From: Tomitella biformata AHU 1821
GTDB taxonomy: Bacteria; Actinomycetota; Actinomycetes; Mycobacteriales; Mycobacteriaceae
Direction of reading: 5' to 3'
Assembly (NCBI RefSeq): GCF_000524475.1
Contig: NZ_BAVQ01000070.1
Span: 62,001 to 126,000, forward strand
Length of the DNA: 64,000 bases
Position 1 is the stretch's first letter, and each line of letters starts with the position of its first letter. The position numbers and the translations under genes were made by a program. The notes beneath the pieces are model-generated. The model saw nothing but the letters and a program-made list of their open reading frames with translations, searched no databases and was not told the origin of the DNA. Positions 4,890 through 50,637 of this stretch are shown in pieces.

Positions 4890-4926
4890 CTTCCAGTCCG
4901 GGGCCGCGTGCGATAGTTTTGGCGCC

Positions 4927-5379: not shown

Positions 5380-5390
5380 CCCCTGACGAG

Positions 5391-5428: not shown

Positions 5429-5461
5429 GCCATGCGAGGCTGGAGTCAGCCCAGCATGTGG

Positions 5462-6319: not shown

Positions 6320-6324
6320 CGACC

Positions 6325-7653: not shown

Positions 7654-7727
7654 GGGTCACCTTCTGCATGAGTCGACTTTCGGATGCGTGTGGTGCTGCC
7701 GACAACCCCTCGGTGTCGACAGCGACC

Positions 7728-7741
7728 TTACTCATGAGTAA
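7728..7741. promoter_or_regulatory. Perfect 14-bp palindrome, site B (TTACTCATGAGTAA), in the fabG4/fadA2 divergent promoter
   Basis: A fully self-complementary 14-mer, 75 bp from the fabG4 ATG and 51 bp from the fadA2 start, well placed to control both directions. It shares the TTACT/GTAA outer arms with sites A, C, D and E. Confidence 0.6.
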
Positions 7742-7791
7742 GAATACAGGACAGATCCTCGAATCACCGACCCGACCGCTTGGAGAACCAC

Positions 7792-9159
7792 GTGGCAACC
7801 AGTCCGAATTCCACTTCCGCCAAGGCCGCGGCGAAGGCCCCCGGCACCCCCCGCGCGGCCCGCCGCGTCGCCGTCCTGGGCGGCAACCGCATCCCGTTCG
7901 CCCGCTCGGACCGCAAGTACGCCCACGCGTCGAACCAGGACATGTTCACTGCGGCGCTCGAGGGCCTGGTCAGCCGCTTCAACCTCCAGGGCGAGCAGCT
8001 GGGCATGGTCGCCGGCGGCGCCGTCCTCAAGCACGCGCGGGATTTCAACCTCATCCGCGAGTCGGTTCTGGGCAGCCACCTGAGCCCGTACACCCCGGCC
8101 TTCGACCTCCAGCAGGCCTGCGGGACCGGCCTGCAGTCGATCATCGCGGTGGGCGACGCCATCGCGGCGGGCCGCATCGACGCCGGCATCGGCGGCGGCA
8201 CGGACACCACGTCCGACGCGCCCCTTGCCGTGGGCGACGACCTGCGCGAGTTCTTCCTCGAGCTCAACCGCGCGAAGACGATGGGCGACCGCATCAAGCT
8301 GCTGGCCAAGGCGCGCCCCGGCATGATCGGCCTGGACATCCCGCAGAACGGCGAGCCCCGCACCAAGATGTCGATGGGTGAGCACGCGGCCATCACGGCC
8401 AAGGAGTTCGGCATCGCCCGCGAGGACCAGGACCAGCTGGCCGTCGAGAGCCACCAGAAGATGGCCGCCGCCTACGACCGCGGCTTCTTCGACGACCTCG
8501 TCACCCCGTTCCTGGGCCTGACGCGCGATGACAACCTGCGCGCGGACTCCAACATCGAGAAGCTCGCCACCCTCAAGCCCGTCTTCGGCGTCAAGGCTGG
8601 CGCGGCCACAATGACCGCCGCGAACTCGACCCCGCTCACCGACGGCGCGTCCGTCGCGCTCCTCGCCAGCGAGGAGTGGGCCGCCGAGCACGGCCACGAG
8701 CCCCTCGCGTTCATCGCGGACTCGGAGACCGCCGCCATCGACTTCATCCACGGCCACGACGGCTGCACCCCGGACGGCCTGCTCATGGCCCCGACGTTCG
8801 CCGTCGCACGCCTGCTCGAGCGCAACGGCCTGACCCTGCAGGACTTCGACTACTACGAGATCCACGAGGCCTTCGCCTCGCAGGTACTCGCGACCCTGCA
8901 GGCCTGGGAGTCGGCGGAGTACTGCACGGACCGCCTGGGCCTGGACGCTCCGCTCGGCTCGATCGACCGCGCCAAGCTCAACGTCAACGGCTCATCCCTC
9001 GCGGCCGGGCACCCGTTCGCGGCGACCGGCGCGCGCATCGTCGCGACGCTCGCGAAAATGCTCGATGAGAAGGCGGCCGAGGAGAAGCGCCCTGTGCGCG
9101 GCCTGATCTCCATCTGCGCCGCCGGCGGCCAGGGCGTCACGATGATCCTGGAGCGCTGA
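7792..9159 (+). CDS. fadA2: FadA2-like acetyl-CoA acetyltransferase (thiolase)
   Basis: Thiolase of 455 residues that cleaves 3-oxoacyl-CoA or condenses acetyl-CoA. The active-site Cys110 lies in LQQACGTGLQS. The C-terminal catalytic motifs are NVNGSSLAAGHPF (His) and SICAAGGQG (Cys). The GTG at 7792 is chosen because GGAG (7782-7785) is correctly spaced; an in-frame TTG at 7780 would place that Shine-Dalgarno inside the gene. It is divergent from fabG4, as in M. tuberculosis Rv0242c/Rv0243. A 15-bp tandem duplication spans its stop codon, and a terminator follows. Confidence 0.93.
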   Translation: MATSPNSTSAKAAAKAPGTPRAARRVAVLGGNRIPFARSDRKYAHASNQDMFTAALEGLVSRFNLQGEQLGMVAGGAVLKHARDFNLIRESVLGSHLSPYTPAFDLQQACGTGLQSIIAVGDAIAAGRIDAGIGGGTDTTSDAPLAVGDDLREFFLELNRAKTMGDRIKLLAKARPGMIGLDIPQNGEPRTKMSMGEHAAITAKEFGIAREDQDQLAVESHQKMAAAYDRGFFDDLVTPFLGLTRDDNLRADSNIEKLATLKPVFGVKAGAATMTAANSTPLTDGASVALLASEEWAAEHGHEPLAFIADSETAAIDFIHGHDGCTPDGLLMAPTFAVARLLERNGLTLQDFDYYEIHEAFASQVLATLQAWESAEYCTDRLGLDAPLGSIDRAKLNVNGSSLAAGHPFAATGARIVATLAKMLDEKAAEEKRPVRGLISICAAGGQGVTMILER

Positions 9160-9175
9160 TTCCTGGAGCGCTGAT
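9146..9175. repeat. Tandem 15-bp duplication across the fadA2 stop codon
   Basis: TCCTGGAGCGCTGAT occurs twice, head to tail. The repeat is in frame, so readthrough of the first TGA would add four residues before an identical second TGA. It looks like recent replication slippage. Confidence 0.9.
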
Positions 9176-9193
9176 TCCGGATCAGCTTTGTGA

Positions 9194-9223
9194 GGCGCCG
9201 TCGACCGTGAGGTCGGCGGCGCC
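9194..9223. terminator. Terminator after fadA2
   Basis: A 13-bp stem (GGCGCCGTCGACC with its partner, one G-U pair) around a GTGA tetraloop, followed by CTTGTCT. It lies between the converging fadA2 and cupin genes. Confidence 0.75.
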
Positions 9224-9236
9224 CTTGTCTGCGGGG

Positions 9237-9683
9237 TCAGCTGCAGTCGACGGCGGGAGCGTCGTCGGACAGCGGCGCGCCGGCGGGTTCCACGTACACC
9301 GTCCACAGCTCGGCTGACGTCGCGCCGTTGTTCGCGCCGATGTGCGGGTGGTCTGCCCCGTGTGACTCCTCGACCACCTGGCCCGCGGAGGAGTCGACGA
9401 CTGTGCAGTCCTGCAATGTCCGGGTGAGAGTCCCCGCCGTGATCAGCGCGTATACCGGGCCCTGGTGATAGTGCCAGCCCGTCGCGCCGCCGGGGGCGAT
9501 GGCGATGTGCCGCAGGGTGACGGTGGCGACGTCGGGCACGGTGATCGCCCCGATGACCTCCGCGGTGACCCCGCTCGACGGCGTGGCCGAGGCTATTGCG
9601 GGGGTGAGCGCTGCCGAGACAATCGCGCAGGCAATCGCGCAGGCCATCGTGGCCGCGCGCCGAGCGTGGATGGGTGGCCGCAT
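9237..9683 (-). CDS. Secreted cupin-domain protein
   Basis: 148 residues. The ATG at 9683 follows GGAAGG with a 7-nt gap. An N-terminal signal peptide (hydrophobic core ATMACAIACAIVSAALTPAI, cleavage near ASA-TPSS) is followed by a single cupin barrel. The barrel has ATGWHYHQGPVYALITAGTLT as the first cupin motif with two histidines, and HPHIGANNG around the second. Cupins of this kind bind a divalent metal or act as small enzymes; the substrate is not evident. It is divergent from the AurF-like gene across about 280 bp. Confidence 0.75.
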   Translation of the reverse strand: MRPPIHARRAATMACAIACAIVSAALTPAIASATPSSGVTAEVIGAITVPDVATVTLRHIAIAPGGATGWHYHQGPVYALITAGTLTRTLQDCTVVDSSAGQVVEESHGADHPHIGANNGATSAELWTVYVEPAGAPLSDDAPAVDCS

Positions 9684-9919
9684 GCGGGCGCCTTCCGTCG
9701 CGAGTCGGCGATCGCACTCTTGCCGTCGCCGTATGTGATCAGTATCACATATCACGGTGGGGGATGGCGGCGATCGCCTGGATTGCGCGCGCCCGGTCGC
9801 GGCCAGCGATCGGGCGGCGTGATCGGCCCGTGGATCCCCGGATAACGGGTACTTTCGAGCAGATTCAGGGGTGTTGACCTGCGCGGGGACAGTTGCCCCT
9901 AGAAATTAGCGGGACTTAG

Positions 9920-9932
9920 AGTTACGGTAACT
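9920..9932. promoter_or_regulatory. Odd palindrome AGTTAC-G-GTAACT upstream of the AurF-like gene
   Basis: A perfect 6+1+6 inverted repeat 29 bp before the ATG at 9961, in the expected promoter zone. Its spacing differs from the TTACT-N-GTAA family of sites, so a different regulator is likely. The remaining 9684-9919 spacer shows no gene. Confidence 0.45.
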
Positions 9933-9960
9933 TCAACAGCACCACTGATGGAGGCGCAGC

Positions 9961-10968
9961 ATGACTCTCACCACAGATTCCCGCGTGGACCACCCCGTAG
10001 GCTCGACGGCGGAGTACCACGCGATGTTGAACCGGCTCTCCGCCGGCTCCGTGCACAAGAACTTCGACCCCTTCACGGATATCGATTGGGACGCCCCCGA
10101 GTTCGCGGTCACCCCGAACGACCCGCGCTGGGTGCTGCAGAAGGAATCCGACCCGATCGGCAGCCATTCCTGGTATCAGGCGCAGCCGGTCGAGAAGCAG
10201 ATCGAGATCGGCATGTGGCGCCAGGCCAACGTCGCCAAGGTCGGCCTGCAGTTCGAGAACATCCTGATCCGCGGGATGATGCAGTACGTCTTCGGGACCC
10301 CCAACGGCTCGCCCGAGGCGCGGTACTGCACGCACGAGGTCATCGAAGAGTGCAACCACACGATGATGTTCCAGGAGATGGTCAACCGCATCGGCAAGGA
10401 CACCCCGGGGATGAGCCCGGCGTTGCGCTTTATCGCGCAGTTCATTCCCCTGGCGGGCAACACGCTCCCCGTGATCTTCTTCATGGGGGTGCTTGCCGGC
10501 GAGGAGCCGATCGACCACGTGCAGAAGGCGGTCTTGCGCGAGGACGGCGTGATCCACCCGATCATGAAGGGCGTCATGGGGATCCACGTCGCCGAGGAGG
10601 CCCGCCACATCTCCTTCGCGCATGAGTTCCTGCGCCGCCGCGTCCCGAAGATGTCCAAGCTGGGCCGCTTCTTGGCATCCCTGATGATGCCGGTGATCAT
10701 GCGCACCCTGTGCGATGCCATCGTGATCCCGCCGAAGCAGTTCTGGGTGGAGTTCGACATCCCGAAGCAGGTGCGGAAGGACCTGTTCTGGTCCAGCCCG
10801 GCCGCGCGCCAGTCGCTGCGCGACTACTTCGCCGACGTGCGGATGCTCGCGCACGACTCCGGCCTGATGAACCCCGTCTCGAAGCTGGTCTGGAAGGCGC
10901 TCAAGATCGACGGCAAGGCCTCGCGCTACCGCAGCGAGCCCGCCCGCGGTCTAGACATCGCGGCCTGA
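9961..10968 (+). CDS. AurF-like di-iron N-oxygenase/hydroxylase family protein (Rv0885-like)
   Basis: 335-residue helical-bundle protein of the p-aminobenzoate N-oxygenase (AurF) family. Candidate iron ligands are visible: Glu100 (QFEN), Glu130-x2-His133 (EECNH), Glu213-x2-His216 (AEEARH) and His221. The Shine-Dalgarno is GGAGG just before the ATG. It is followed by fprB, the same pair as Rv0885-Rv0886, so FprB probably supplies electrons. The natural substrate is unknown for the mycobacterial branch; N-oxygenation of an arylamine is the family precedent only. Confidence 0.85.
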   Translation: MTLTTDSRVDHPVGSTAEYHAMLNRLSAGSVHKNFDPFTDIDWDAPEFAVTPNDPRWVLQKESDPIGSHSWYQAQPVEKQIEIGMWRQANVAKVGLQFENILIRGMMQYVFGTPNGSPEARYCTHEVIEECNHTMMFQEMVNRIGKDTPGMSPALRFIAQFIPLAGNTLPVIFFMGVLAGEEPIDHVQKAVLREDGVIHPIMKGVMGIHVAEEARHISFAHEFLRRRVPKMSKLGRFLASLMMPVIMRTLCDAIVIPPKQFWVEFDIPKQVRKDLFWSSPAARQSLRDYFADVRMLAHDSGLMNPVSKLVWKALKIDGKASRYRSEPARGLDIAA

Positions 10969-11018
10969 ACTTCCTGCCCTAGCGCCTCGCCCGCCACACA
11001 CGATCGGAAGCTCTCGAC

Positions 11019-12746
11019 ATGCCCCACGTGGTGACCCAGCCGTGCTGTAGCGACGCCTCGTGCGTGTACGCCTGCCCGGTGAACTGCATCCATCCGACGC
11101 CAGATGAGCCGGACTTCCTCACCGCGGAGATGCTGCACATCGACCCAGAGGCCTGTGTCGACTGCGGTGCGTGCGTCTCCGCGTGCCCGGTGGACGCCAT
11201 CGTGCCGGAGGCGCAGCTGTTGCCCTCGGAGCTGGTGTTCCTCGACATCAACGCGAGCTTCTACCGCGAGCGTCGGGACCGGCCGATCCTCGCGCCCGTC
11301 ATCCCCGCGCCGGTGGTGGCACCGGGGAAGGCCCCGCTGCGGGTCGCCATCGTCGGGTCCGGCCCGTCCGCCATGTACGCGGCGGACGAGCTGCTGACAT
11401 TGCCCGGCACTCAGGTCAATATCTTCGACCGGCTGCCAGTGCCCTATGGCCTCGTCCGCGCGGGCGTTGCCCCGGACCATCAACGGACCAAGGGCGTGAC
11501 CAAGCTGTTCGACAAGTTCGCGGAGCAGGACGGGCTGGAGTACTACCTCAATGTGGAGATCGGCGCGGATACAGATTCTGGGGCCATCACGCACGACGAG
11601 CTGCTCGCCGGACACCACGCCGTGATCTACGCCGTCGGCGCGTCCTCGGACCGCAAGCTCGGCATCCCGGGGGAGGGGTTGCCCGGCAGCAGCTCCGCCA
11701 CCGACTTTGTGGCCTGGTACAACGGGGACGCCCGGCACTCCGGCGAGACCTACGACCTCTCGCACCGGCGTGCCGTGATCATCGGCAACGGCAACGTGGC
11801 CCTCGATGTCGCGCGCATCCTCACCGTCGACCCGGAGACACTTGCGGGCACCGACATCTCCCGCCAGGCATTGGAGGCCTTGCGCGCCAGCAAGATCGAG
11901 GAGGTCGTGATCATCGGCCGCCGCGGCCCGGGACAGTCTGCGTTCACGGTCCCGGAGTTCGCGGGCCTGATCGAGACGCCCGGCATCGATGTCGCAATCC
12001 ACCCCGGGGAGGACCTGCTCGACGCGGACACCAAGAGGCGCAAGGGCGAGGCCGGGTTGTCGCATGCCGTGGAGCATAAGTTGGCGCTGCTCGACTCGCT
12101 CGATGCCAGGGAGTCCGCGGGCGGGCGCACGATCACTCTGCGCTACCTGCTCAGCCCCACGGAGATTACGGGAGACGACGCGGTGACCGGGATCGTCCTG
12201 TCCCGCAATGCCTATGCGGGAGGTGCCGCGCGCATCGAGTCGACCGACGAGACCGTGCGCCTGGACGCCGGGCTGGTGCTGACCTCGATCGGCTACCGCG
12301 GGGTCGCGACGGCCGGTGTGCCGTTCGACGAGGCCGCGGGTGTCATTCCGAACGCCGGGGGCCGCGTGTTGCGAGAGCCCGCGGGCGAGGTGCTGCCGGG
12401 CGCGTACGTCACCGGCTGGATCAAGCGGGGCCCGTCGGGCTTCATCGGCACCAACAAGTCCTGCGCGCAGGAGACGGTCAACCGCCTGGTCGACGACTAC
12501 AACGACGGCGAGCTCACCGCGCCCGCCACCACACCGCGGGAGTTCGACAAGTTGGTGCGCCGCCGCCAGCCCACGGTCGTGGACCGGGCTGGCTGGCATG
12601 CCATCGATCGGGCAGAGCGGGAGCTGGGCGCCCGCGGGGGCCGAGTCCGCGAGAAGATCACCGACCCTGCCGCGCTGGTGGAGGTCGCCGCCCAGGCGGC
12701 GCCGCCGGCCGGGGCTAGGAAGCTCCTGCGGAGCCTGCGTCGGTAG
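11019..12746 (+). CDS. fprB: FprB-type ferredoxin/FAD-dependent NADP(+) reductase
   Basis: 575 residues. The N-terminal ferredoxin domain has cysteine clusters around residues 9-23 and a CVDCGACVSACPVDA motif (Cys46, 49, 52, 56). It is fused to an adrenodoxin-reductase-type flavoprotein: FAD loop IVGSGPSAMYAA near 110, an NADPH-binding GNGNVALDVARIL segment near 255, and the C-terminal GWIKRGPSGFIGTNK. It transfers electrons between NADPH and iron-sulfur partners. The gene is 50 bp downstream of the AurF-like gene, so the pair likely forms an oxygenase plus its reductase. Confidence 0.92.
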   Translation: MPHVVTQPCCSDASCVYACPVNCIHPTPDEPDFLTAEMLHIDPEACVDCGACVSACPVDAIVPEAQLLPSELVFLDINASFYRERRDRPILAPVIPAPVVAPGKAPLRVAIVGSGPSAMYAADELLTLPGTQVNIFDRLPVPYGLVRAGVAPDHQRTKGVTKLFDKFAEQDGLEYYLNVEIGADTDSGAITHDELLAGHHAVIYAVGASSDRKLGIPGEGLPGSSSATDFVAWYNGDARHSGETYDLSHRRAVIIGNGNVALDVARILTVDPETLAGTDISRQALEALRASKIEEVVIIGRRGPGQSAFTVPEFAGLIETPGIDVAIHPGEDLLDADTKRRKGEAGLSHAVEHKLALLDSLDARESAGGRTITLRYLLSPTEITGDDAVTGIVLSRNAYAGGAARIESTDETVRLDAGLVLTSIGYRGVATAGVPFDEAAGVIPNAGGRVLREPAGEVLPGAYVTGWIKRGPSGFIGTNKSCAQETVNRLVDDYNDGELTAPATTPREFDKLVRRRQPTVVDRAGWHAIDRAERELGARGGRVREKITDPAALVEVAAQAAPPAGARKLLRSLRR

Positions 12747-12750
12747 GCCG

Positions 12751-14361
12751 TTATCCGCGCGCGCGTCGGCGGATGGCCACGGCGGCCAGTTCGGTCCGCG
12801 TGGCAACTCCGAGCTTGGACATCGCGTGCGACACGTGGCTTTGCACGGTGCGCGGAGAGATCGCCAACTGAGAGGCGATCTTCGGGCCGGTCAGCCCGTC
12901 GGCGACAAGCATGGTCACCGCCAGCTCGCGCGCCGTCAGCGATTCCCAGCCGCGGTCCGCATCGCGGTGCCCCGTGCGGTGGCCGAGCACGATGCCGAGT
13001 GCGCGCAGCCGGCTGCGCAATCGGTGGGAGACCGTAACCGAGCCAATGCGTTCCGCCAGCTCCAGCGTGCGCTCGGCCAGCTCACGGCTGACGTCGGGGT
13101 CGGTCCGGGCGGCGAGGTAGGAGGCCTCCTCGAACGCCATGGTCTCCGCGATGAGGTCGCCGGTGGACTGGAAGCCGACCGCCGCCCGCTGGGCCAACCG
13201 GTGATCGCCGGCCGCCATCGCCCGCGTGAGCAGCACTGCGCTCTCCAAAGCCGGCGCATGCGCGGCGCCCCAGCACAACTCGGTGCGAGCGGCGATCTGG
13301 CGGAGCAGCCCGAAATCGTGTGAGAGCGAGGCCTGGCGGGCGAGCATGGGCGACCGCGCGAGGACCCAGGGCGTCAACTCCTGTCGTGCAGCGAGCTCGA
13401 AGGCCCCGGCAGCCGCGGCGTGGGCCAGCTCGTCCTCACCGCGCAGTCGGTGCAGCTCAGCGCGGGCCAACTCGATATCCGGAAAGCCGAACAGGTCCGG
13501 CAGGGCCCGGGCGGCCCATGCGTCCAGGCGTTCGCCCGCGCGGTCTAGCCGTCCAAGGTGCAGATCCAGCAGTGCCCGGTCGGCGACGGCAGAGGACATC
13601 CAGCCAGAGCCGATCCCCTCGGCCTCGACCAGCGCCTCGTCGAACAGCATCGCGGCGATGCCGAGATCTCCGGTGGCCATGTGCGCCTCGGCGAGAAGGC
13701 CCTGGCGGAAGGGGCCGAGCCAGCGGTTGGTGATCCGCGTGTCCGGTCCGAACTCGTGCGGTGCGCGGGCGATCGCCAGCGCCGGGCCGTAGGCGGACCG
13801 GGTGGCCCACAGCGACCAGGCCGAGGCCGCCGCGGCCTCGGCCCCGAGCCACTGGCCGGGGCCGGCTCGGCTTTCCAGCGCGGCGTCGAAGGCGCCCAGC
13901 GCGCCGACGCAGTCGCCCCCGAGAAGCTGCCAGATAGCGTGCGCGGCGCCCGCGGCGGTGATGCCCGCGTCCGCCGGCCTGGGAGGGGACAGATCCCGCG
14001 GTTTCGCCGCGCCGGTCACGGCGAGGAGCCAGTGCCCACATTGCCGTGCCCAGGCCAGGGATTCTGGCGGGGTGGGGAGGGTGTCGAGCAGACGGATCGA
14101 GTCGAGCGCGTCGTCCACCTGGGCCGAGATCACGGAGAACGCCATCGCCATGAAGGCCAAGGCGATCTGGGCATCCGGCCCGTCGGCCACCGAGGCCGCG
14201 CGCCGGGTGAGCTCGCGCGCATCGAGCATCCGGCCGCTATCGGCAAGAGTCGCCGCGTGCGCGAGCACCTCCTCGACGTTGGCGAGGTCCGGGCCGAAGC
14301 CGACCGCGGCGGGCCGGCCGCCGGCTGTTGGCGGGCCCTCGAGCCGTAGGGATCCATGCAC
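12751..14361 (-). CDS. C-terminal half of a split LAL-type regulator (TPR-like region plus LuxR HTH)
   Basis: 536 residues from a GTG at 14361. Most of the protein is alpha-helical repeat-like sequence rich in Ala/Leu. The last about 65 residues are a LuxR/GerE DNA-binding domain (LTARELAVTMLVADG, then KIASQLAISPRTVQSHVSHAMSKLG). LAL regulators normally carry an ATPase, helical repeats and LuxR HTH in one chain of about 900 residues. Here the ATPase is encoded by the preceding reading frame, which stops 20 bp upstream in a different frame. No good Shine-Dalgarno is seen at the GTG. Either a frameshift split one gene, or two subunits are made. Confidence 0.75.
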   Translation of the reverse strand: MHGSLRLEGPPTAGGRPAAVGFGPDLANVEEVLAHAATLADSGRMLDARELTRRAASVADGPDAQIALAFMAMAFSVISAQVDDALDSIRLLDTLPTPPESLAWARQCGHWLLAVTGAAKPRDLSPPRPADAGITAAGAAHAIWQLLGGDCVGALGAFDAALESRAGPGQWLGAEAAAASAWSLWATRSAYGPALAIARAPHEFGPDTRITNRWLGPFRQGLLAEAHMATGDLGIAAMLFDEALVEAEGIGSGWMSSAVADRALLDLHLGRLDRAGERLDAWAARALPDLFGFPDIELARAELHRLRGEDELAHAAAAGAFELAARQELTPWVLARSPMLARQASLSHDFGLLRQIAARTELCWGAAHAPALESAVLLTRAMAAGDHRLAQRAAVGFQSTGDLIAETMAFEEASYLAARTDPDVSRELAERTLELAERIGSVTVSHRLRSRLRALGIVLGHRTGHRDADRGWESLTARELAVTMLVADGLTGPKIASQLAISPRTVQSHVSHAMSKLGVATRTELAAVAIRRRARG

Positions 14362-42667: not shown

Positions 42668-43267
42668 GTGATGAGCTCGCTGCTCGGATGGCTGCAGGGT
42701 ATCGGCGGCAACGTGATCTATATAGCCGTCGGGCTGATGGTTTTCGCGGAGGACGCGCTATTGCTCGGATTCGTCGTGCCCGGCGAGACCGCGGCGATTC
42801 TCGGTGGGGTCCTGGTGAGCGAGGGCCGGGTGAACCTGTGGCTGATGATGGCCGTCGTGTCGGTCGCGGCAGTCGCGGGGGACTCGGCCGGGTACTTCGT
42901 GGGCAGGCGGCTCGGGCCCCGACTGGCGGCGAGACAGGACGGTTCCAAGAGGCAGCAGCGATTCGAGCGGGCCGGGGATTTTGTGGACCGCCATGGCGGG
43001 GTCGCGATCTTCCTCGGCAGATTCGTGGCCTTCGTCCGCACCGTGGTGCCCGCGATCGCCGGGGCCACGGGGATCCGCTACCGCAAGTTCGTGTTCTACA
43101 ACGTGCCGGCGGGCATCATCTGGGGGATTGGCAACGTGCTGATCGGGGTGGTGGCCGCGCAGTCCTATGAGCGGGTGGCGTCGGCGCTGGGGACCGGCAC
43201 AGCACTGCTTCTGGGGGTGCTCGTGGTGCTCGCTGTCGTGGTGTGGCGGGTGCGGCGGCAGGCCTAG
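42668..43267 (+). CDS. DedA family membrane protein
   Basis: 199 residues, GTG 42668 or ATG 42671. It has the DedA (VTT/SNARE-assoc) core: membrane-reentrant GETAAILGG near the first acidic site, DSAGYFVGRRLG, and FVAFVRTVVPAIAGATGIRYRKFVFYN with the conserved Arg and Pro. Family members act in lipid or polyprenyl-phosphate recycling and pH/voltage homeostasis. It is divergent from the aminotransferase and its stop overlaps that of the converging TetR gene by 4 bp. Confidence 0.87.
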   Translation: MMSSLLGWLQGIGGNVIYIAVGLMVFAEDALLLGFVVPGETAAILGGVLVSEGRVNLWLMMAVVSVAAVAGDSAGYFVGRRLGPRLAARQDGSKRQQRFERAGDFVDRHGGVAIFLGRFVAFVRTVVPAIAGATGIRYRKFVFYNVPAGIIWGIGNVLIGVVAAQSYERVASALGTGTALLLGVLVVLAVVVWRVRRQA

Positions 43268-43866
43268 CGCGCGTCCGCCAGCAGGTCCGCGACCATGCCG
43301 CGGCCGACGCGGATCGGCTCCTCGCTGCACGCGAACTTCGACCCGGCCAGGGCGCCGTCGTAGATGGTCTGGATCTTGGTGGCCAGCACGGGCGCGTCGG
43401 GGATCTTGGCCGTGGTGAGGAGGGCCGTCAACTGCTCGTGCAGCCACACGCGGTGCTCGCTGACGGGGCTCAGCACGCCATGCAGCTCGCCCGGGAATTC
43501 CGTTGCGGCATTGAGATATTGGCAGCCGCGGTAGTTGCGCACGGGGGCGGAGGCGATCGCCAGGTCGAAGAAGGCGAAGATGCGTCCGACGGGGCTGTCG
43601 AGGCCGGCGACGGCATCCTCCCACCGCTGACGATCGCGCAGGTCCAGCTGGTGGAGGTACTCGGTGACGAGGGCGTCCTTCGACCCGAAGCCGGAGTACA
43701 GGCTCGCGCGCGCGACGCCGGCCTCGCCGATGATCCTGTCGATGCCCACGGCCCTGATGCCATGCGCGGCGAAGAGCTCGGTGGCCGCCGTCAGGAGGCG
43801 GTCGGCGGGGCTGGGCTTGGTGGGCGTGGCAGTGGTGGTCGAGGCGGGCACGGGGCAAGAGTACAT
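43264..43866 (-). CDS. TetR family regulator facing the organosulfur operon
   Basis: 200 residues. HTH near 20-65: DRLLTAATELFAAHGIRAVGID, then RIIGEAGVARASLYSGFGSKDALV. C-terminal ligand domain of the TetR_C type seen in LfrR/AcrR-like regulators. It is divergent from the cysteine leader peptide, and TAGACAGACCGGTCTA (43893-43908) lies 27 bp before its ATG, between the -35 and -10 of the opposite promoter. It is therefore likely to repress both itself and the sulfur operon; the inducing ligand may be an organosulfur compound (inference). Confidence 0.87.
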   Translation of the reverse strand: MYSCPVPASTTTATPTKPSPADRLLTAATELFAAHGIRAVGIDRIIGEAGVARASLYSGFGSKDALVTEYLHQLDLRDRQRWEDAVAGLDSPVGRIFAFFDLAIASAPVRNYRGCQYLNAATEFPGELHGVLSPVSEHRVWLHEQLTALLTTAKIPDAPVLATKIQTIYDGALAGSKFACSEEPIRVGRGMVADLLADAR

Positions 43867-43892
43867 CGCCCGGCCGCCGAGAACAGAAGAAT

Positions 43893-43921
43893 AGACAGAC
43901 CGGTCTAGCTACCGCTACACT
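43893..43921 (+). promoter_or_regulatory. Promoter of the Cys-leader/organosulfur operon with embedded TetR operator
   Basis: TAGACA (-35, 43893-43898), a 17-bp spacer, and TACACT (-10, 43916-43921). The GTG of the leader peptide is 8 nt after the -10, so transcription starts at or next to it. The perfect palindrome AGACCGGTCT (43897-43906) overlaps the -35 edge and spacer, the classic place for TetR repression. Confidence 0.7.
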
Positions 43922-43929
43922 CGCTCACT

Positions 43930-44022
43930 GTGACCCGAAGCGTTCTGACCCGCCGCCTGCACCTGGACTTGGTGCGGGTGGCTGGCGCTGCGTGTTGTCG
44001 CTGTCGCTGCTGTTGCTGTTGA
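43930..44022 (+). CDS. Polycysteine leader peptide (30 aa), putative attenuator
   Basis: A reading frame too short for most gene callers: GTG, 29 sense codons, TGA. The N-terminal part reads TRRLHLDLVRVAGA, the RRLHxDLxRVxxA signature of actinobacterial sulfur-gene leader peptides. The last nine residues are CCRCRCCCC, seven cysteines in total (five TGT and two TGC codons). No Shine-Dalgarno; probably leaderless. Polycysteine leaders in mycobacteria stall ribosomes when cysteinyl-tRNA is scarce and raise expression of downstream sulfur genes. The genes that follow are an organosulfur uptake/oxidation set, which fits. Confidence 0.85.
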   Translation: MTRSVLTRRLHLDLVRVAGAACCRCRCCCC

Positions 44023-44180
44023 TTTTCAACCCCGCCAGCGAATTCTCGGCTCATCGAGCCATTCCCTAGATCGCCATCCCGCCGCAGGCCAATAATTTGG
44101 CCGGGACTGCGGGCTGTTTAGGCCACACGATCTTGGCGGCCGAGCCTCCTCTCACCGGATCTACTCTGGAAGGCATTCCC
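44023..44180 (+). promoter_or_regulatory. Attenuator-like leader RNA between Cys peptide and first structural gene
   Basis: 158 nt. A hairpin CCGCAG-GCCAA-TAAT-TTGGC ... CTGCGG spans 44082-44112 (11 bp with a 5-nt bulge). A small stem GGCTC-ATC-GAGCC lies at 44048-44060. CTCGGC (44045-44050) can alternatively pair with GCCGAG (44139-44144) near the downstream ribosome site. Such mutually exclusive pairings are expected if ribosome position on the cysteine codons controls the operon; the structures were found by eye only. Confidence 0.5.
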
Positions 44181-44702
44181 ATGTCGCTGTACCTGTATGA
44201 AATTGTTCCCGCGGCCGAGCGTCGCGACGAGATCTCGCAGATCATCAAGGAATTCGCCGCGGAGATCACCACCGCCGGCGGCGAGCTCATCGAGACCCAG
44301 GTGACGAAGGACCACGGCCGCATCTTCGCGATCTCCGAGTTCTCGGGCTGCGCAGCGCCGGAGCTCAAGGTCGACGTGCTGGCTGGAGCCGAGCTCGAGG
44401 GCCCGCACCAGGTCCGCCTCGTCGGCGCCGAGCTGGCAGAGATCAAGGCCGCCCGCCCCGAGGCCGGCTACCTCGTCGAGTGGGACATCCCCGCCGAGAT
44501 CGACATGGACACCTACCTGGCCCGCAAGAAGGAGAAGTCCCCGCTGTACGCCGATGTCAAGGACGTGAGCTTCCTGCGCACCTACGTCCGCGAGGACACG
44601 GCCAAGTGCCTGTGCTTCTACGACGCCGCCGACGAGGATGCTGTGCGCCGCGCCCGTGAGGTCGTCAGCACCCCGGTCAGCCGCCTGCACCAGCTCGACT
44701 GA
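44181..44702 (+). CDS. DUF4242-domain protein, first gene of the organosulfur operon
   Basis: 173 residues from the ATG at 44181, with GGAAGG 7 nt upstream. Two ferredoxin-like alpha/beta-barrel halves: residues about 1-95 and a C-terminal DUF4242 segment (DVSFLRTYVREDTAKCLCFYDAADEDAVRRA). DUF4242 proteins (SCO4226 type) are small, sometimes nickel-binding, of unknown function. Its position between a cysteine leader and an SfnB-like oxidase suggests a role in sulfur-compound handling, possibly as a dimeric-barrel monooxygenase or metal binder; this is inference. Confidence 0.75.
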   Translation: MSLYLYEIVPAAERRDEISQIIKEFAAEITTAGGELIETQVTKDHGRIFAISEFSGCAAPELKVDVLAGAELEGPHQVRLVGAELAEIKAARPEAGYLVEWDIPAEIDMDTYLARKKEKSPLYADVKDVSFLRTYVREDTAKCLCFYDAADEDAVRRAREVVSTPVSRLHQLD

Positions 44703-44740: not shown

Positions 44741-45796
44741 ATGACCGCAACCATCACCGATTCCATCGCGCAGCGTCGCGTGAGCGCGAGCGAGTTCGTT
44801 CGCGAGCGCGCCGCGGCACTCGACCTGGGCGAGACCGACACCCGGATCGATGTGTCCAAGCTCGGTGAGCTGGGCCTATTCGGCCTCGGCTGTCAGGGCG
44901 GGCCGGTGGCGGAGATGGTCGCGGTCATCGAAGATGTGGCGGCCGAGAGCCTGTCCGCGGGCTTCAGCGCCTGGGCGCATCGCATGGCGCTTGAATATGT
45001 GGTCCGCGGGCCGGCTGCGGTCCAGGCCAAGTACCAGGCGAAGCTGGAGTCTGGCGCCGCAGTGGGCGTCACGGCGATGGCAGCCGGCCTCAAGTACGTC
45101 GCCGGGCTCGGTGAGGTGGCGCTCGTGGCCACCGAGGTCGACGGCGGCGGGCTCCAGATCAGCGGACCCATCCACTGGGCATCCAACGTGTTCGACGACG
45201 CGCTCATCGTGCTGTGCGCCCGCAGCGCGGACAGCACCAAGACGTACGTCGCGATCATCGAGGCGTCGGCGCCCGGCATCACCGTCCGGCCCGCGTCGCA
45301 GTTGCTCGCGCTGAACTCCACGGCGTCGACCTCCCTGGTTCTGGACGCCGTGCACATCCCGGCCGAGAACATTATCGGCACGGACCTGACGGAGTTCGTC
45401 AAGGGTGTGCGCCCGACGTTCCTGCTGCTGCAGACAGCATTCTGCAGTGGCATCTCCCGCACGTCCGTCGAGGAGTCCGCCAAGTGCCTCGGCGGGCTCG
45501 GCGAGGGCTTTGTCGACGAGCATGCCGAGCTAGCGGTCGAGCTCGCCGCCTTGCGAGATCGCTTGGGGCGCTTCGCCGCCGACACCACCAGCGCCAGCGC
45601 GCGCGAGCTCATCCAGCTACGGCTTGACGGCTCCCGCCTGGCGATGGCCGCGACGCGCCTCGAGGTGACACTGAAAGGCGGGGCCGGCTACTCCATGAAG
45701 TCGCCGACCAACCGCCGATTCCGCGAGGCCGCCTTCCTGCCCGTCCAATCACCGTCGGAAGGACAGCTGCGATGGGAACTCGCGCGCTCCAGCTGA
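44741..45796 (+). CDS. Acyl-CoA-dehydrogenase-fold protein, SfnB/DszC-like, likely FMN-dependent
   Basis: 351 residues, shorter than typical acyl-CoA dehydrogenases (380-400). Recognisable ACAD pieces: LGELGLFGLGCQGG, a mid-domain ISGPIHWASNVFDDALIVLCA, and a C-terminal helical bundle (STASTSLVLDAVHIPAENIIG onward). Near-complete loss of the acyl-CoA catalytic Glu region and the context place it with SfnB/DszC-type flavin monooxygenases used in desulfurisation. It is 38 bp after the DUF4242 gene, and its last 25 bp overlap the ABC ATPase. Confidence 0.75.
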   Translation: MTATITDSIAQRRVSASEFVRERAAALDLGETDTRIDVSKLGELGLFGLGCQGGPVAEMVAVIEDVAAESLSAGFSAWAHRMALEYVVRGPAAVQAKYQAKLESGAAVGVTAMAAGLKYVAGLGEVALVATEVDGGGLQISGPIHWASNVFDDALIVLCARSADSTKTYVAIIEASAPGITVRPASQLLALNSTASTSLVLDAVHIPAENIIGTDLTEFVKGVRPTFLLLQTAFCSGISRTSVEESAKCLGGLGEGFVDEHAELAVELAALRDRLGRFAADTTSASARELIQLRLDGSRLAMAATRLEVTLKGGAGYSMKSPTNRRFREAAFLPVQSPSEGQLRWELARSS

Positions 45797-46500
45797 CCGG
45801 CGGCCGCAAGAGCTATCCGGGCCGCCCGGATGTGCTCCAAGGCGTCGACATCGGTGTGGACCAGGGCGAGTTCCTGGTGATCCTCGGCCGCAGCGGCAGT
45901 GGCAAGTCCACGCTGCTGCGCATCATGGCGGGTTTGGAGACCCTCGATGGGGGCAACCTCGAGTGGGCCGTCGAGGGCCCGCGCATCGGCGTCGTGTTCC
46001 AGCAGCCACTGCTGCTGCCCTGGCTGAACGTGCGGGAGAACATCCGCTTGGGCGGGCGGTTCGCGGCGAACAAGGCGGCCTTCGACGCGGCCTTCGCCGA
46101 CGAGCTGCTGACCCACTTCGGCCTTGCCGACCTCGCCGACTCCTACCCGGACCAGCTGTCCGGGGGCCAGGCCCAGCGCATCGCCGTGATCCGCGCCGTC
46201 GCCATCCGACCGCAGGCACTGCTGCTCGACGAGCCCTTCAGCGCCCTCGACCCGGCGATCCGCGGAGATCTGCAGGTGTGGCTCGGGCAGGTCGCCAGCG
46301 AGCTGGGCTTCACCACCGTCCTGGTCACCCATGACGTCGACGAGGCCATCACCCTGGGGGACCGCATCGCACTGCTCGGCACAGCCGGGATCGTGCGACG
46401 CGAATGGCTTTGCGGCACAGATGCTGTGGACAAGGTGGTGCTGCGAACAGAGATCCTGGCGGAGTACCGGGACACATCCACGCGCATCCGGGTGTCGTGA
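45772..46500 (+). CDS. SsuB/TauB-like ABC transporter ATPase
   Basis: 242 residues. Complete ABC ATPase: Walker A GRSGSGKST, Q-loop VFQQPLLLPWLNV, signature LSGGQAQR, Walker B LLLDEPFSALDP, H-loop VTHDVDEA. The short form and the PLLLPWL Q-loop motif are typical of nitrate/sulfonate/taurine importers. It overlaps the upstream gene by 25 bp and the downstream binding protein by GTGA, so the transporter subunits are translationally coupled. It energises import of the organosulfur substrate. Confidence 0.88.
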   Translation: MGTRALQLTGGRKSYPGRPDVLQGVDIGVDQGEFLVILGRSGSGKSTLLRIMAGLETLDGGNLEWAVEGPRIGVVFQQPLLLPWLNVRENIRLGGRFAANKAAFDAAFADELLTHFGLADLADSYPDQLSGGQAQRIAVIRAVAIRPQALLLDEPFSALDPAIRGDLQVWLGQVASELGFTTVLVTHDVDEAITLGDRIALLGTAGIVRREWLCGTDAVDKVVLRTEILAEYRDTSTRIRVS

Positions 46501-47672
46501 CGATGATCGACGGTGTGGGGCGCAGAACCGTGCTGCGCGGCGCGCTCGGCCTAGCGGCGCTTGGCGGAGTGGCCGGGATCGTGGACCTCGGCCGCGCCGC
46601 CGCCACCGACCGCTCCAACGGCACCGACAAACTGCGCGTCGGCTACCTGCCCATCACCGACGCCGCCCCGCTGCTGGTGGCGCATGGCGCCGATCTGTTC
46701 CAACCCGAGGTCGTCAGCTCGAGCCAGCCGGTGATGTTCCGCAGCTGGTCCAGCCTGGCAGAGGCGTTCATCAGCCGGCAGGTCGACGTGGTCCACCTGC
46801 TCATGCCGATGGCCGTGCAGCTGAAGTACTCCCTCGGCAGCTCCGCCCGGATACTCGGCTGGAACCACACCAACGGCTCCGCGCTGACCGTGGCCCCGCA
46901 CATCACGGACCTCGAACAGCTCGCGGGAACTCAAGTGGCAGTGCCGTTCTGGTGGTCCATCCACAACATCGTGCTGCAGGACATGCTGCGTGCCCGCGGC
47001 CTGACTCCCGTGGTGCGCACCGCGCCGTCGAAAGCCGCCGGGACGGTGGGGCTGGTCGTGATGAGCCCGTCGGACATGGTGCCGGCGCTGGCCAACGGCG
47101 CGATCTCCGCATACACCGTCGCCGACCCGTTCAACGCGGTCGCGGAGATCAAGGGCATCGGCAAGATCCATTGCTTCCTGGGAGACGTGTGGCGAGATCA
47201 CGCCTGCTGCGCGCTGCTGGTGCACCAGGACGTGATCGACCGCAACCCCGCCGCAGTGCAGGGCCTCACGGACTCCATCGTCGCCGCGCAAATGATGATC
47301 AACGCGGACCGGCCCGCGGCCGCGGCCATGCTGAGCGGGGGCCGCTATTTGCCGCAGCCGGAGAAGGCCATCGCGAAGGCACTGACCTACCCGCCTGAGA
47401 ACTACCAGATCGCGAACCCGTCCTGGTCGCCGCAGAAGATCGGCTACCAGCCGTTCCCGTTCGAGTCCTTCACGACCGCGCTGGTGGGGGCCATGCACTC
47501 GACCGTCGTGGACGGCAACCGGGACTTCTTGGACCGCATCGACATCGACACTGTGCACCAAGAATTGATCGACGACCGCTTCGTGCGGTCCTCCATCGCC
47601 GGTGTCGGCGGGCCCTCCGCATTCGGCCTGCCCACCGGATTGACCAGAACTGAGGAAGTGGACCTGACGTGA
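46497..47672 (+). CDS. ABC transporter substrate-binding protein (SsuA/TauA-like), Tat-exported
   Basis: 391 residues from GTG 46497 (GTGA overlap with the ATPase stop; ATG 46503 is the alternative). N-terminal twin-arginine motif GRRTVLRGALGLAALGG predicts Tat export; there is no lipobox cysteine. The mature part has the NMT1/SsuA-like fold: RVGYLPITDAAPLLVAHG, then QVDVVHLLMPMAVQLKY, GTQVAVPFWWS and SPSDMVPALANGAISAY. Likely binds an alkanesulfonate, taurine or aromatic organosulfur compound; ligand unproven. Confidence 0.85.
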   Translation: MTMIDGVGRRTVLRGALGLAALGGVAGIVDLGRAAATDRSNGTDKLRVGYLPITDAAPLLVAHGADLFQPEVVSSSQPVMFRSWSSLAEAFISRQVDVVHLLMPMAVQLKYSLGSSARILGWNHTNGSALTVAPHITDLEQLAGTQVAVPFWWSIHNIVLQDMLRARGLTPVVRTAPSKAAGTVGLVVMSPSDMVPALANGAISAYTVADPFNAVAEIKGIGKIHCFLGDVWRDHACCALLVHQDVIDRNPAAVQGLTDSIVAAQMMINADRPAAAAMLSGGRYLPQPEKAIAKALTYPPENYQIANPSWSPQKIGYQPFPFESFTTALVGAMHSTVVDGNRDFLDRIDIDTVHQELIDDRFVRSSIAGVGGPSAFGLPTGLTRTEEVDLT

Positions 47673-48517
47673 GTGCGACGAAGCCCCGCAGGCTGTCGTG
47701 GTCGGCCTTCTGGCCGCCCGCTGCCGCGATCGTGTTGGCCATTGCCGTCTGGTGGCTGCTCACGGCCGTGGTGGCCGCGCCCGACTCGCTGATCCGCTCC
47801 TTCGCCCCGCAACATGTCCTGCCAGCGCTGTGGGAGCTCCTCGAGCGCGGCGTGCTGCTGCCGGACATCGGCGCCAGCATGTACCGCCTCCTGGTGGGCC
47901 TGCTCATCGCCGGCGTCATCGGCATCCCGCTGGGATTGGTGATCGGGCTGAGCGGAGTCCTCGAGCGGGCAAGCCGACCCGTGATGCAATTCCTCCGCAT
48001 GGTGTCCCCGCTGTCCTGGGCCCCTATTGCCGTGGCGCTCTTCGGCGTTGGCCATCGTCCGGTGATCTTCCTGATCGCCGCGGCCGCGGTGTGGCCGATA
48101 GTGATCAACACCGCCGCCGGCGTGCACGCCATCGATCCCGGCCACCTGCAGGTCGCCCGCTCGATGGGGGCCACGTTCCGCGAACGGCTGTTCGTCATTG
48201 TGCTGCCCGCCATCCGCGACCATGTGCAGACCGGTCTGCGGGTGGGCCTTGGCATCGCGTGGGTGGTGCTGGTGCCCGCCGAGATGCTGGGCGTCCGCTC
48301 CGGTCTCGGCTACCAAATCCTCAACGCCCGTGACCAATTGGCGTACAACGAGGTCATGGCGGTGATCTTGGTGATCGGCATCCTCGGCTACATCCTGGAC
48401 TCCGCCGCCCGCGCCCTCCTGGGCGAGCGCCGGCGAAAGACGCCGGAGCTCCCGGAAAAGTCGGACAGCGTCGACAAGATCGAGGACGCGCCGAAACCCG
48501 TGGAATACACGATCTAG
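47669..48517 (+). CDS. ABC transporter permease (SsuC/TauC-like)
   Basis: 282 residues, six membrane helices. The inner-membrane coupling segment ARSMGATFRERLFVIVLPAI is the EAA motif of sulfonate/nitrate importer permeases, and AEMLGVRSGLGYQILNARD follows it. GTG 47669 overlaps the binding-protein stop as GTGA. Last gene of the operon, followed after 9 bp by a strong terminator. Confidence 0.88.
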   Translation: MSATKPRRLSWSAFWPPAAAIVLAIAVWWLLTAVVAAPDSLIRSFAPQHVLPALWELLERGVLLPDIGASMYRLLVGLLIAGVIGIPLGLVIGLSGVLERASRPVMQFLRMVSPLSWAPIAVALFGVGHRPVIFLIAAAAVWPIVINTAAGVHAIDPGHLQVARSMGATFRERLFVIVLPAIRDHVQTGLRVGLGIAWVVLVPAEMLGVRSGLGYQILNARDQLAYNEVMAVILVIGILGYILDSAARALLGERRRKTPELPEKSDSVDKIEDAPKPVEYTI

Positions 48518-48650: not shown

Positions 48651-50489
48651 CTACGCCGTCTCCCGCCAGGGCGGGTCGAAGAGCTCCGCGTCCTGCGGAG
48701 GTGCTGACTTCGGGATGTATCCGGGAGGGCCGGGGAATCGCGCCGGCGGCAGCAGATACTCCCGCGGGTGATGGTGGTGGTTGACCCGGCCGCGCCGCAG
48801 TGGGTCGATGCAGGCCGGGGGATGCCAGATCGTGCGGTAGGCGTAATCGGTCCCGGGCTCGCCCACCGTCGTCGCCCAGTCTTGATCTCCGGGCCCGATC
48901 AGCGGGTGGTGCTCCAGGCACGCGAAGGTTAGCCGCTCAATGTCGGTGTGGCCGCCGTTGGCCCAGTCGTCGACGTGATGCGCCTCGCAGCGGTAGCCGG
49001 GCCGAGTGCAGTCGGGGAAAGTGCAGCCGCGGGCCCCGGCATGGAGCACTAGCCGCTGATCTGCGGAGGCCAGCCGTTTCGCTCGGCCGAGGTGCAGGGG
49101 CCTGCCGTCATCGTCGTAGATCAACAGGTAATGGTGGGCGCGGGCGGCCATGCGGATGGCCTCGCGCATCGGGATCATCGTTCCGCTGCCGGCGAAGGCG
49201 TTGCCGGTGGCCTGTTCGAGTTGCTCGAGGGTCATGGTGATGATGGCGGTCACGGGCAGCCCTCGGTGCTGGCCCAGGCCGGGCGAGCCTAGGACTGAGC
49301 GGAAGAGGCGCTTGATCGCGTCGTGTCGACGCTGCCCGAGGCTGCGCCGGTCCACTGGCGGATCCTCGCAGTGGTCGCTGGGCGGATCGGGAGGTTCCTT
49401 TGGAGGAGCTTCCGTCGGTTCCGGAGGCCACTGCATCTCTGAAGCGCTGGGCCTTTCTGGGGCGCTGGGATTTTCGGGCGCGCTGGGCTCTCCGGATTCA
49501 GGGGGCTTGGATGGCGTGGTGTCGTCAGCTGAAGTGTCGGGGCTGGCGGTCGCGGTCGCGGCGGCTCCCGGATCGTCAGGCACTGGCGCTGCCGTGGCCT
49601 CCGGGGCGGCTTGATTCTCTGCGTCAGCGCGGTCTTGCTTGTCCCTGGCGGCGGCGAAGAAGTCGAATAGGTCCTGCTGTGCCGCGGTGGGCGGTGGGGG
49701 AGTGGGACGTTCACCGTCGGATGCGGGGTTGCCGATGTCGACCACATCAAATAGGGGATGGTCGGCGTTAGCGGGCCCCGCCGTGTCTGTCTTGGCGAAA
49801 TAGGCGTCGACATAGGCGCGGGTTTCCGCGTCTATACAGAAGGTGCCGCGGGTGAGCTTGTCGCGGCCCTGCGGTTTCATATTGAAGAAAGTCTGGCCCT
49901 CGCGCTCGTGCTCGGAGGGCTCGTCGCCGTCGGGGTTCAGGTGCGCCTCGATCTGTTTCGCGGCGACCGCGACTGCTTCCGGGTGGGTGTGCTTCGCGAG
50001 GTCCACCAGTTGTGCCTCGGCCTTCTCGAGGTCCTCGGTGGAGATTGATGGAGGTAGGCGCTTGAAGAATCTGAGGATCACATCGGCGTGCTCGGGATTG
50101 ATATCGCCGTCGCGTTGGGCCTGGCCGGTGGGCGCGTGTTCGGCGGGGAGCGGTTGGCCGCCGAGCGTGGTGCCGGGGCCGAGCAATGCGGCATGGGCGA
50201 TCCGGCGCTTGGCCTCGGCGGGGGCGATGTGCAGGCGCTGGGACAGGAGCACGTGCAGCTTCTTGGCCTGGAGCTCCTCGGCGGCGTTTTGTTGGCCGAG
50301 CTGGTTGATCAGCTCGTGATTGATGCCGGGGATGGCCCGGAGGAGGTGCTCGAACTCGTCAAGCAGGTCCAGGCGTGCGAGGTTGCCCAGGTGTCCGTAT
50401 TCACGGCCGCGCAGGGCGGCGATCGAGGCAGTGGACAGGTCCATTAGCTCGGCTGTGGAGAGGCCGTCGAGCTGCCACTGATTAGTCAT
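48651..50489 (-). CDS. DUF222/HNH endonuclease-like protein (REP13E12 family)
   Basis: About 612 residues from the ATG at 50489 (GGGGAG spaced correctly; GTG 50495 is the alternative). An N-terminal DUF222 region (about 20-250) is followed by an acidic, Pro/Ala-rich low-complexity insert (about 270-370), then a C-terminal HNH domain: GCTFPDCTRPGYRCEAHHVDDWANGG and LACLEHH-like FACLEHHPLI. These proteins are present in many copies in mycolata genomes, often repeat-associated. Function unproven; a nuclease role is predicted. Confidence 0.85.
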   Translation of the reverse strand: MTNQWQLDGLSTAELMDLSTASIAALRGREYGHLGNLARLDLLDEFEHLLRAIPGINHELINQLGQQNAAEELQAKKLHVLLSQRLHIAPAEAKRRIAHAALLGPGTTLGGQPLPAEHAPTGQAQRDGDINPEHADVILRFFKRLPPSISTEDLEKAEAQLVDLAKHTHPEAVAVAAKQIEAHLNPDGDEPSEHEREGQTFFNMKPQGRDKLTRGTFCIDAETRAYVDAYFAKTDTAGPANADHPLFDVVDIGNPASDGERPTPPPPTAAQQDLFDFFAAARDKQDRADAENQAAPEATAAPVPDDPGAAATATASPDTSADDTTPSKPPESGEPSAPENPSAPERPSASEMQWPPEPTEAPPKEPPDPPSDHCEDPPVDRRSLGQRRHDAIKRLFRSVLGSPGLGQHRGLPVTAIITMTLEQLEQATGNAFAGSGTMIPMREAIRMAARAHHYLLIYDDDGRPLHLGRAKRLASADQRLVLHAGARGCTFPDCTRPGYRCEAHHVDDWANGGHTDIERLTFACLEHHPLIGPGDQDWATTVGEPGTDYAYRTIWHPPACIDPLRRGRVNHHHHPREYLLPPARFPGPPGYIPKSAPPQDAELFDPPWRETA

Positions 50490-50637
50490 CGTCACTCCCC
50501 TCGGGCGCTGGGATGTTCGAATCTTGATTGTGCCTTGAGGCTAGCGGAGGGGTCTGACACAAATCGGTCCAGAAGTGCCAGAATGAAGCCGTTGAATGTA
50601 ACAGTTAGGTAACGATTGGTGGCGCGTGAATGGGAAG

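Follow-up and report, generated by a model that had tools for sequence, protein, structure and literature searches.

A candidate cysteine-responsive leader peptide between a predicted TetR-type operator and a putative organosulfur operon in Tomitella biformata

The window analyzed here is a stretch of 64,000 nucleotides from Tomitella biformata AHU 1821 (contig NZ_BAVQ01000070.1, positions 62,001 to 126,000), and the coordinates in Table 1 refer to it. It contains a five-gene operon for a DUF4242 protein, a flavoenzyme and an ABC importer, preceded by a short leader ORF and a divergent TetR-family gene. The set downstream of the leader is predicted to serve sulfur metabolism, comprising an SsuABC-type importer and a distantly SfnB-like enzyme with scores below the equivalog cut-offs. 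Its organosulfur-scavenging role is thus a prediction, as the flavoenzyme and the binding protein stay below the curated cut-offs of SfnB and SsuA. The original prediction that the leader heads a sulfur-linked operon agrees with the profile similarity of the downstream genes, and leader and operon are kept together in part of the relatives. A search of solved structures gave no more than distant relatives for the flavoenzyme and the binding protein, and nothing for the DUF4242 protein. Term searches in two sulfur-source omics studies (PMC7661421, PMC8557817) gave nothing attributable to the window operon. Similarly, no description of a cysteine leader paired with a DUF4242 gene was found in the open-licence literature, judged by titles, abstract starts and listings. 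Downstream of the operon, a long open frame on the minus strand (48651-50495) looks DUF222/HNH-type from reading its sequence.

Table 1. Features of the leader locus and operon, in window coordinates
Feature	Position	Strand	Basis or remark
Divergent TetR-family regulator	43264..43866	-	Pfam TetR_N 3e-13
Predicted palindromic operator TAGACAGACCGGTCTAGCTA	43892..43911		overlaps -35-like hexamer 43892-43897
-10 hexamer TACACT	43916..43921	+	promoter scan; ends 8 nt before GTG
Leader ORF	43930..44022	+	30 codons, GTG-TGA, probably leaderless
Candidate RNA hairpin within leader ORF	43933..43995	+	inner stem 43952-43963 / 43971-43982; weaker outer arm
Candidate sensor codon Cys22 (TGT), conserved	43993..43995	+	TGT in 28/28 distinct leaders
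Tail with six further Cys codons	43996..44019	+	relatives have zero to two Cys there
C-rich, G-poor stretch, leader stop to Shine-Dalgarno	44023..44165	+	C/G 1.51; candidate Rho-loading region
11-bp hairpin of the original prediction	44082..44112	+	6 bp GGCCAA/UUGGCC and 5 bp CCGCA/UGCGG, 5-nt bulge; paired by hand
Shine-Dalgarno GGAAGG of DUF4242 gene	44168..44173	+	sequence
DUF4242 protein (SCO4226-like)	44181..44702	+	Pfam PF14026 3.7e-20
Acyl-CoA dehydrogenase-type flavoenzyme, distantly SfnB-like	44741..45796	+	TIGR04022 34.7 bits, cut-off 430.9
ABC ATPase, sulfonate/nitrate/taurine type	45772..46500	+	Pfam; NCBIfam below curated cut-offs among matches listed
ABC substrate-binding protein, NMT1_2 / SsuA type	46497..47672, start approximate	+	PF13379 3e-41; TIGR01728 62.4 bits, cut-off 163.5
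ABC permease, SsuC/TauC-like	47669..48517	+	PF00528; NCBIfam below cut-offs

The leader ORF runs from GTG 43930 to TGA 44022 and encodes MTRSVLTRRLHLDLVRVAGAACCRCRCCCC. The frame, the start, the stop and the motifs RRLHLDL and CCRCRCCCC were all confirmed as originally described. The peptide belongs to a known class of cysteine-type leaders, as had been proposed, since it matches the NCBIfam profile NF042934 (cis_reg_atten, "putative leader peptide") with 29 bits against a curated cut-off of 27. Leader residues 5-22 align with positions 2-19 of the 19-position profile. The score was 28.1 bits in the genome-wide search, and 14 control genomes gave no match over the cut-off. The absence of a Shine-Dalgarno-like sequence upstream of the GTG and the placement of the -10 hexamer were likewise verified in the sequence and by the promoter scan.

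Relatives of the locus were fetched by DUF4242 alignment, which gave 121 entries encoding a relative, and the best 80 of the 121 were kept (L014-L093). By tblastn, all five genes occur in the same order and on the same strand in 72 of these 80 loci. The exceptions are L024, L035, L040, L073, L078, L081, L084 and L088, some of which lie near contig ends. In L088 (Streptosporangium saharense) the ABC genes are located on the opposite strand beyond the TetR orthologue and the operator lies close before the DUF4242 gene, with no leader found; this arrangement reads as a rearranged version of the locus. Among 81 genomes around the window's own, 10 contain DUF4242 relatives, one of them a short weak match. 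With a single pattern, a leader was detected between the operator and the first gene in 30 of the 80 loci, belonging to Rhodococcus, Prescottella, Nocardia, one Gordonia, Pseudonocardia, Amycolatopsis, one Streptomyces and one metagenomic genome. The same pattern, which a diverged leader could escape, detected none in the other 50, including Mycolicibacter, Mycolicibacterium, Dietzia, Kocuria and Rothia. Therefore, the operon does not require the leader. The detailed counts below refer to 29 leaders fitting a stricter pattern, namely the window and 28 loci; L061 and L068 did not fit.

Two further loci, L005 and the plasmid locus L012, likewise carry the leader. On the latter, the Pseudonocardia plasmid pBCI1-2, which is typed as mobilizable, leader and operon adjoin a second ABC set, an NtaA/DmoA-type monooxygenase and a rhodanese-like protein (1390-14248), and this region is possibly a plasmid-borne organosulfur island. 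The five-gene block was also found on a Thermomicrobium plasmid and on the Synechococcus plasmid pANL, where it adjoins cysK. A passage of PMC8049743 describes pANL as encoding many sulfur-related genes, and srpI, located on pANL, as induced by sulfur starvation in S. elongatus.

The promoter appears to hold a second control layer, unnoticed in the original prediction, in the form of a predicted palindromic operator beside the divergent TetR gene. Its consensus in the relatives is TAGACAGACNNGTCTGTCTA. Allowing up to three mismatches, the operator has a single match in the 4.7-Mb genome, and the control has 0. Calling an operator in relatives at 13 or more of 18 matches, a threshold chosen by us, we found it in 60 of the 80 loci; a TetR orthologue lies next to it in 49 of these but not in the other 11. 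Of the remaining 20 loci, 19 have neither operator nor TetR and L069 has TetR only. In total, tblastn placed a TetR orthologue on the strand opposite the operon in 50 of the 80 loci. The loci that keep the operator with no TetR orthologue within the fetched sequence are L024, L035-L041, L045, L048 and L054; ten are labelled Dietzia, and L040 Actinomycetales. In loci with the operator and without the leader, the operator begins 55-77 nt before the gene, and the leader therefore resembles a module that was inserted or lost while the promoter switch on one side and the Shine-Dalgarno sequence on the other stayed in place. A similarity to the McbR operator was considered and dropped, because the conserved center differs.

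Comparison of the 29 leaders supports a leaderless start. All 29 have a [TC]ANNNT hexamer whose end lies 6-8 nt upstream of the start codon, against 4.4% of random positions in the same loci, and a Shine-Dalgarno-like sequence ahead of the start codon is found in none. Based on this spacing of the -10 hexamer, the leader mRNA is very probably leaderless. Over codons 2-22 of 25 distinct cores, pN/pS is 0.33 in frame compared to 1.67 and 2.18 in the two other frames, indicating that selection acts on the peptide and not on the DNA alone. The conserved leader body reads VTRSxLTRRLHxDLVRVAxAAC, whereas the tail is not conserved. Accordingly, the comparative alignment upheld the peptide body and Cys22 as conserved in relatives, but not the further Cys codons.

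The last nine leader residues include seven Cys, so that the run of Cys codons at the 3' end is present in the window. The window has 1371 stop-to-stop frames with 15 or more codons, and the leader is the only one of them with five or more Cys in its last nine residues. Among 60 first-order Markov copies of the window, 1 contained a frame with 5 Cys in this stretch and 0 reached 7. Chance alone would not be expected to yield a frame end so rich in Cys. The tract consists of a low-complexity repeat of TGT, CGC and TGC, and slippage may therefore account for part of its length. After Cys22, six Cys are found in the window leader, two in that of L050, one in seven others and none in the remaining 20. 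The polycysteine run, originally taken as the signature of the class, does not hold as such here, for the other 28 leaders have zero to two Cys past Cys22. The long run is peculiar to this genome and reads as a lineage-specific extension. Cys22 is the sole invariant Cys of the 29 leaders. Its codon is TGT in all 28 distinct leaders, compared to 48 of 327 Cys codons (15%) in matched operon and tetR stretches of the same loci. The Amycolatopsis leader L068, outside the 29, has TGC at this codon as read from its sequence. One particular Cys codon, rather than a long Cys run, is suggested as the conserved sensor.

The codon usage at this position was surveyed with NF042934 matches from related and phylum-wide genomes, the loci covering part of the matches, mostly the best-scoring. 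Of 58 loci taken, L119 and L151 were left out, and the rest represent 52 distinct leaders, with L111 belonging to the DUF4242 class. One of them, L142, lacks a Cys at the motif position. The remaining 51 family leaders were selected by a motif filter that itself demands the Asp, the Arg and, for the third-base count, the Cys; in these, the Cys nine residues after Asp is encoded by TGT in 48 and TGC in 3. At this codon the third base is U at a frequency of 0.94, compared to 0.33 or less at 15 other positions. At other Cys positions of the surveyed peptides, TGC and TGT numbered 17 and 2 (two after Asp), 3 and 1 (five after), 9 and 10 (seven after, i.e. two before the sensor), 9 and 0 (eight after), and 18 and 12 (beyond the sensor), or 56 and 25 when all non-sensor Cys codons are pooled (25/81). 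The long-ORF baseline of the same loci is 285 TGC and 49 TGT. Fisher tests comparing the sensor UGU with the position two after Asp, the position seven after and all other Cys codons gave p values of 2e-11, 2e-4 and 7e-14, respectively, with related leaders not being independent. The near-equal numbers of TGC and TGT seven after Asp show that UGU also occurs outside the sensor. In DUF4242-class leaders the third base of codon 20 (Ala) is U in 72%, for which pairing with the 5' arm may be the source; the UGU is possibly also a by-product of hairpin pairing (A4-U66) in this class.

Tentatively, and with clearly less than even confidence, we propose that the actinobacterial cysteine leader family needs no polycysteine run. 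A single UGU codon, read by wobble nine residues after the Asp, would sense cysteine and be kept against strong GC pressure, with the stall aided by the peptide body in the exit tunnel, and polycysteine tails would be later amplifications. Among the titles listed from the literature on UGU and cysteine leaders, none pointed to such a rule. The occurrence of UGU at one position in 48 of 51 family leaders provides a simple testable rule for the sensor codon, and argues that "polycysteine" names only a subset.

A candidate RNA hairpin was found within the leader ORF. In the window it folds with a z of -3.2 against dinucleotide shuffles. Covariation was evaluated on 23 gapless leaders, leaving out those identical over the stretch and the divergent Pseudonocardia, Amycolatopsis and Streptomyces leaders. 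In this set 90.8% of the cells pair, compared to 87.9% in shuffles, and all slid versions are lower; the model was drawn from the folds of the same sequences, which favours the hairpin in this test. Both-sided changes occur in 8 cells versus 1.8 in shuffles, all in the inner stem and none in the outer arm, and the RNAalifold consensus contains the inner stem only. Against synonymous recodings the mean z is -0.61 over 25 leaders, with 14 below zero. This control gives strong support for L043, L044, L050 and L051, and values near or above zero for many Nocardia leaders. The hairpin is likely a feature of the window leader and its closer relatives rather than of the whole family, because 27 other family leaders have a mean z of -0.21 against synonymous controls, with 13 below zero. 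Downstream of the leader, the 11-bp hairpin described originally does exist, and its surrounding stretch folds with a z of -2.1 against shuffles (region 44023-44160, -0.4), but the stretch that holds it is without an equivalent in any of the 10 relatives aligned to the window. The alternative pairing envisaged near the first structural gene is a weak possibility at most, according to the folding and swap tests. No conserved downstream hairpin emerged from the alignments made of the region between the stop and the Shine-Dalgarno sequence, and Rfam gave no match for 43700-44400 up to an E of 1.

No intrinsic terminator, the hairpin with U-run of a classical transcription attenuator, was found in 43860-44200. 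Rho loading is usually marked by RNA rich in C and poor in G, and the stretch between the leader stop and the Shine-Dalgarno sequence has this composition. It ranks at the 95th percentile of same-length stretches around the window locus, and C exceeds G in 29 of 29 leader loci. The C/G ratio reaches at least the 90th percentile of same-length locus stretches in 26 of the 29 leader loci and in 22 of 26 other family loci. The median is 1.60 in 28 leader loci versus 1.08 in 76 upstream gaps of other predicted genes, these gene predictions being approximate. We read the bias as a signature of Rho loading and nothing beyond it, in leader loci that are related. The stretch is poorly conserved in sequence. 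The Shine-Dalgarno GGAAGG that follows is present in all 11 rows of the alignment of the window with its relatives, and GAAAGG, GGAAGG or similar in a further alignment. Rho-dependent attenuation is favoured over a hairpin-type read-out, because the region is C-rich and G-poor, Rho has earlier been suggested for cys leaders, and sequestration of the Shine-Dalgarno sequence found no support in folding. Against the Rho step counts that a ribosome stalled at Cys22 would cover little RNA past the stop codon.

Mycobacterial polycysteine leaders, according to work by Canestrari of 2020, reportedly act by translation attenuation, with the ribosome-binding site hidden until the ribosome stalls. A passage of PMC13236596 cites this mechanism for cysteine genes of M. 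smegmatis. At the window locus it would require that RNA structure masks the Shine-Dalgarno sequence of the DUF4242 gene until a ribosome stalled on the leader disrupts this structure. In the predicted fold at the window locus, the Shine-Dalgarno sequence indeed pairs mainly with leader nucleotides. Twelve Nocardia-type sequences share a weak consensus stem near it with 2 both-sided changes, and in 18 of 29 loci the native pairing of leader nucleotides 43-56 with it exceeds the average of the swaps, this being the best result among 10 windows tried. However, thermodynamic models of 28 loci gave a flat mean unpaired probability for the Shine-Dalgarno sequence, with 0.277 for free RNA, 0.272 with a ribosome at Cys22 and 0.283 with a ribosome at the stop. 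Pairing between leader and Shine-Dalgarno sequence surpasses that of swaps in about half of the 29 loci (11 to 18), and intergenic RNA pairs with the Shine-Dalgarno sequence no more strongly than shuffles do (mean z -0.17). For the leader arms against intergenic RNA, the mean z values were 0.29 and -0.38. The poor conservation of the intervening stretch also speaks against masking. Folding with masked ribosomes and swap tests thus gave no clear signal of sequestration by leader or intergenic RNA, and we give translation attenuation a credible chance that is well short of even.

The conservation of the leader ORF itself could have other origins. In nascent-chain-assisted arrest, the R-x-H-x-D-L-x-R body would act in the exit tunnel to halt the ribosome at one slow UGU, and one Cys codon would then be enough for sensing. 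The purifying selection on the residues before Cys22, the third-base preference at the sensor and the 20 of 29 leaders that have no Cys past it are in agreement with such an arrest. The conserved RNA hairpin over the same stretch could explain part of the conservation, though, while polycysteine members point to plain codon hunger, and UGU at 10 of the 19 Cys two before the sensor is not specific to it; on balance this arrest is rather unlikely. It is improbable that the ORF matters chiefly as the RNA hairpin with the peptide as a by-product. The covariation and the fold of the window leader in excess of shuffles fit that idea, but selection is specific to the reading frame and synonymous recodings fold about equally well on average. 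A modified ribosomal peptide (a RiPP/TOMM precursor of the streptolysin S family) is hardly conceivable. TIGR03602 matches the leader with an E of 1.1e-4, but the score of 22 bits lies below the cut-off of 35, no YcaO match is present in the whole genome and the long Cys tail is not conserved. This candidate was rejected on the sub-cut-off score together with the missing YcaO cyclodehydratase.

Taken together, the locus quite probably carries a cysteine-responsive NF042934-class leader that sits on a leaderless mRNA and separates a TetR-type operator/promoter from an organosulfur-scavenging operon, with ribosome stalling and a Rho-type read-out inferred. The leaderless architecture, the purifying selection on the peptide, the invariant UGU at Cys22 and the conservation of operon and operator can be read from the sequences. 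When Cys-tRNA is scarce, the ribosome would stall at Cys22 (in the window also at the six Cys codons after it), and the operon behind the leader would be expressed. When cysteine is plentiful, the ribosome would complete the leader and leave, and expression would be cut, most likely via Rho loading on C-rich RNA left uncovered ahead of the DUF4242 gene. TetR would provide a second, operon-specific input at the promoter, making this a dual-input operon. An organosulfur importer operon would thus join the candidate gene set under ribosome-directed cysteine control, and cysteine leader control would be stacked upon a TetR promoter switch. The compact locus makes Rho-dependent versus translational attenuation in such leaders directly testable.

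The leader is best described as a further case of a known attenuator class, with a corrected anatomy that combines a single invariant UGU codon for Cys, a polycysteine extension specific to the lineage, a predicted TetR operator and a favoured Rho-type read-out. NF042934 matches at an E of 0.01 are found in 52 of 61 related genomes, and at 0.001 in 15 of 198 genomes drawn from the phylum. The window's own genome has three below 0.001. One over-cut-off leader of this genome precedes a DUF4395 and rhodanese pair, and one below the cut-off precedes a sulfite/nitrite reductase gene; L094 (1483-1569) and L096 are the two further family leaders of this genome. Downstream of other family leaders 30 genes were found, those of 13 loci being put through library searches. 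Elsewhere the family precedes genes for APS kinase (2), CysE, uroporphyrinogen-III methyltransferase, sulfite/nitrite reductase, an alkanesulfonate monooxygenase-like protein, a DszC/SfnB-like protein and TauE; of the 13 loci put through the searches, three (L105, L115 and L116) carry transporter families of a general kind that bear no sulfur label. The window leader shares with the family the R-x-H-x-D-L-x-R motif, the terminal Cys, a score above the cut-off and downstream sulfur genes, whereas its unusually long Cys tail, DUF4242-led operon and predicted TetR operator set it apart.

Similar cases have been reported in other bacteria. Shell 2015 (PMC4633059) describes cysteine-rich uORFs at cysA2/Msmeg_5788 and nirA in mycobacteria. 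Like these leaderless sORFs (cysA2/Msmeg_5788, Rv0485 and nirA), the window leader has a leaderless start, terminal Cys codons and a cysteine-linked operon. It differs in its target operon, its orthologues carry one to three Cys codons, and folding here lends no support to sequestration of the Shine-Dalgarno sequence. The candidate Cys leader peptides of Seliverstov 2005 resemble it in the Cys codons near the stop and the missing conserved terminator hairpin, with Rho proposed as a possibility, but in the relevant passages of PMC1262725 they are reported for cys and cbs operons and not for a DUF4242 operon. The uORFC-8-2 motif before cysS in Rhodobacterales, as presented in a section of PMC8632094, is also a uORF with Cys codons read as a ribosome-mediated attenuator. 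It differs in being alphaproteobacterial, with two tandem Cys codons, UGC dominant, and an intrinsic terminator.
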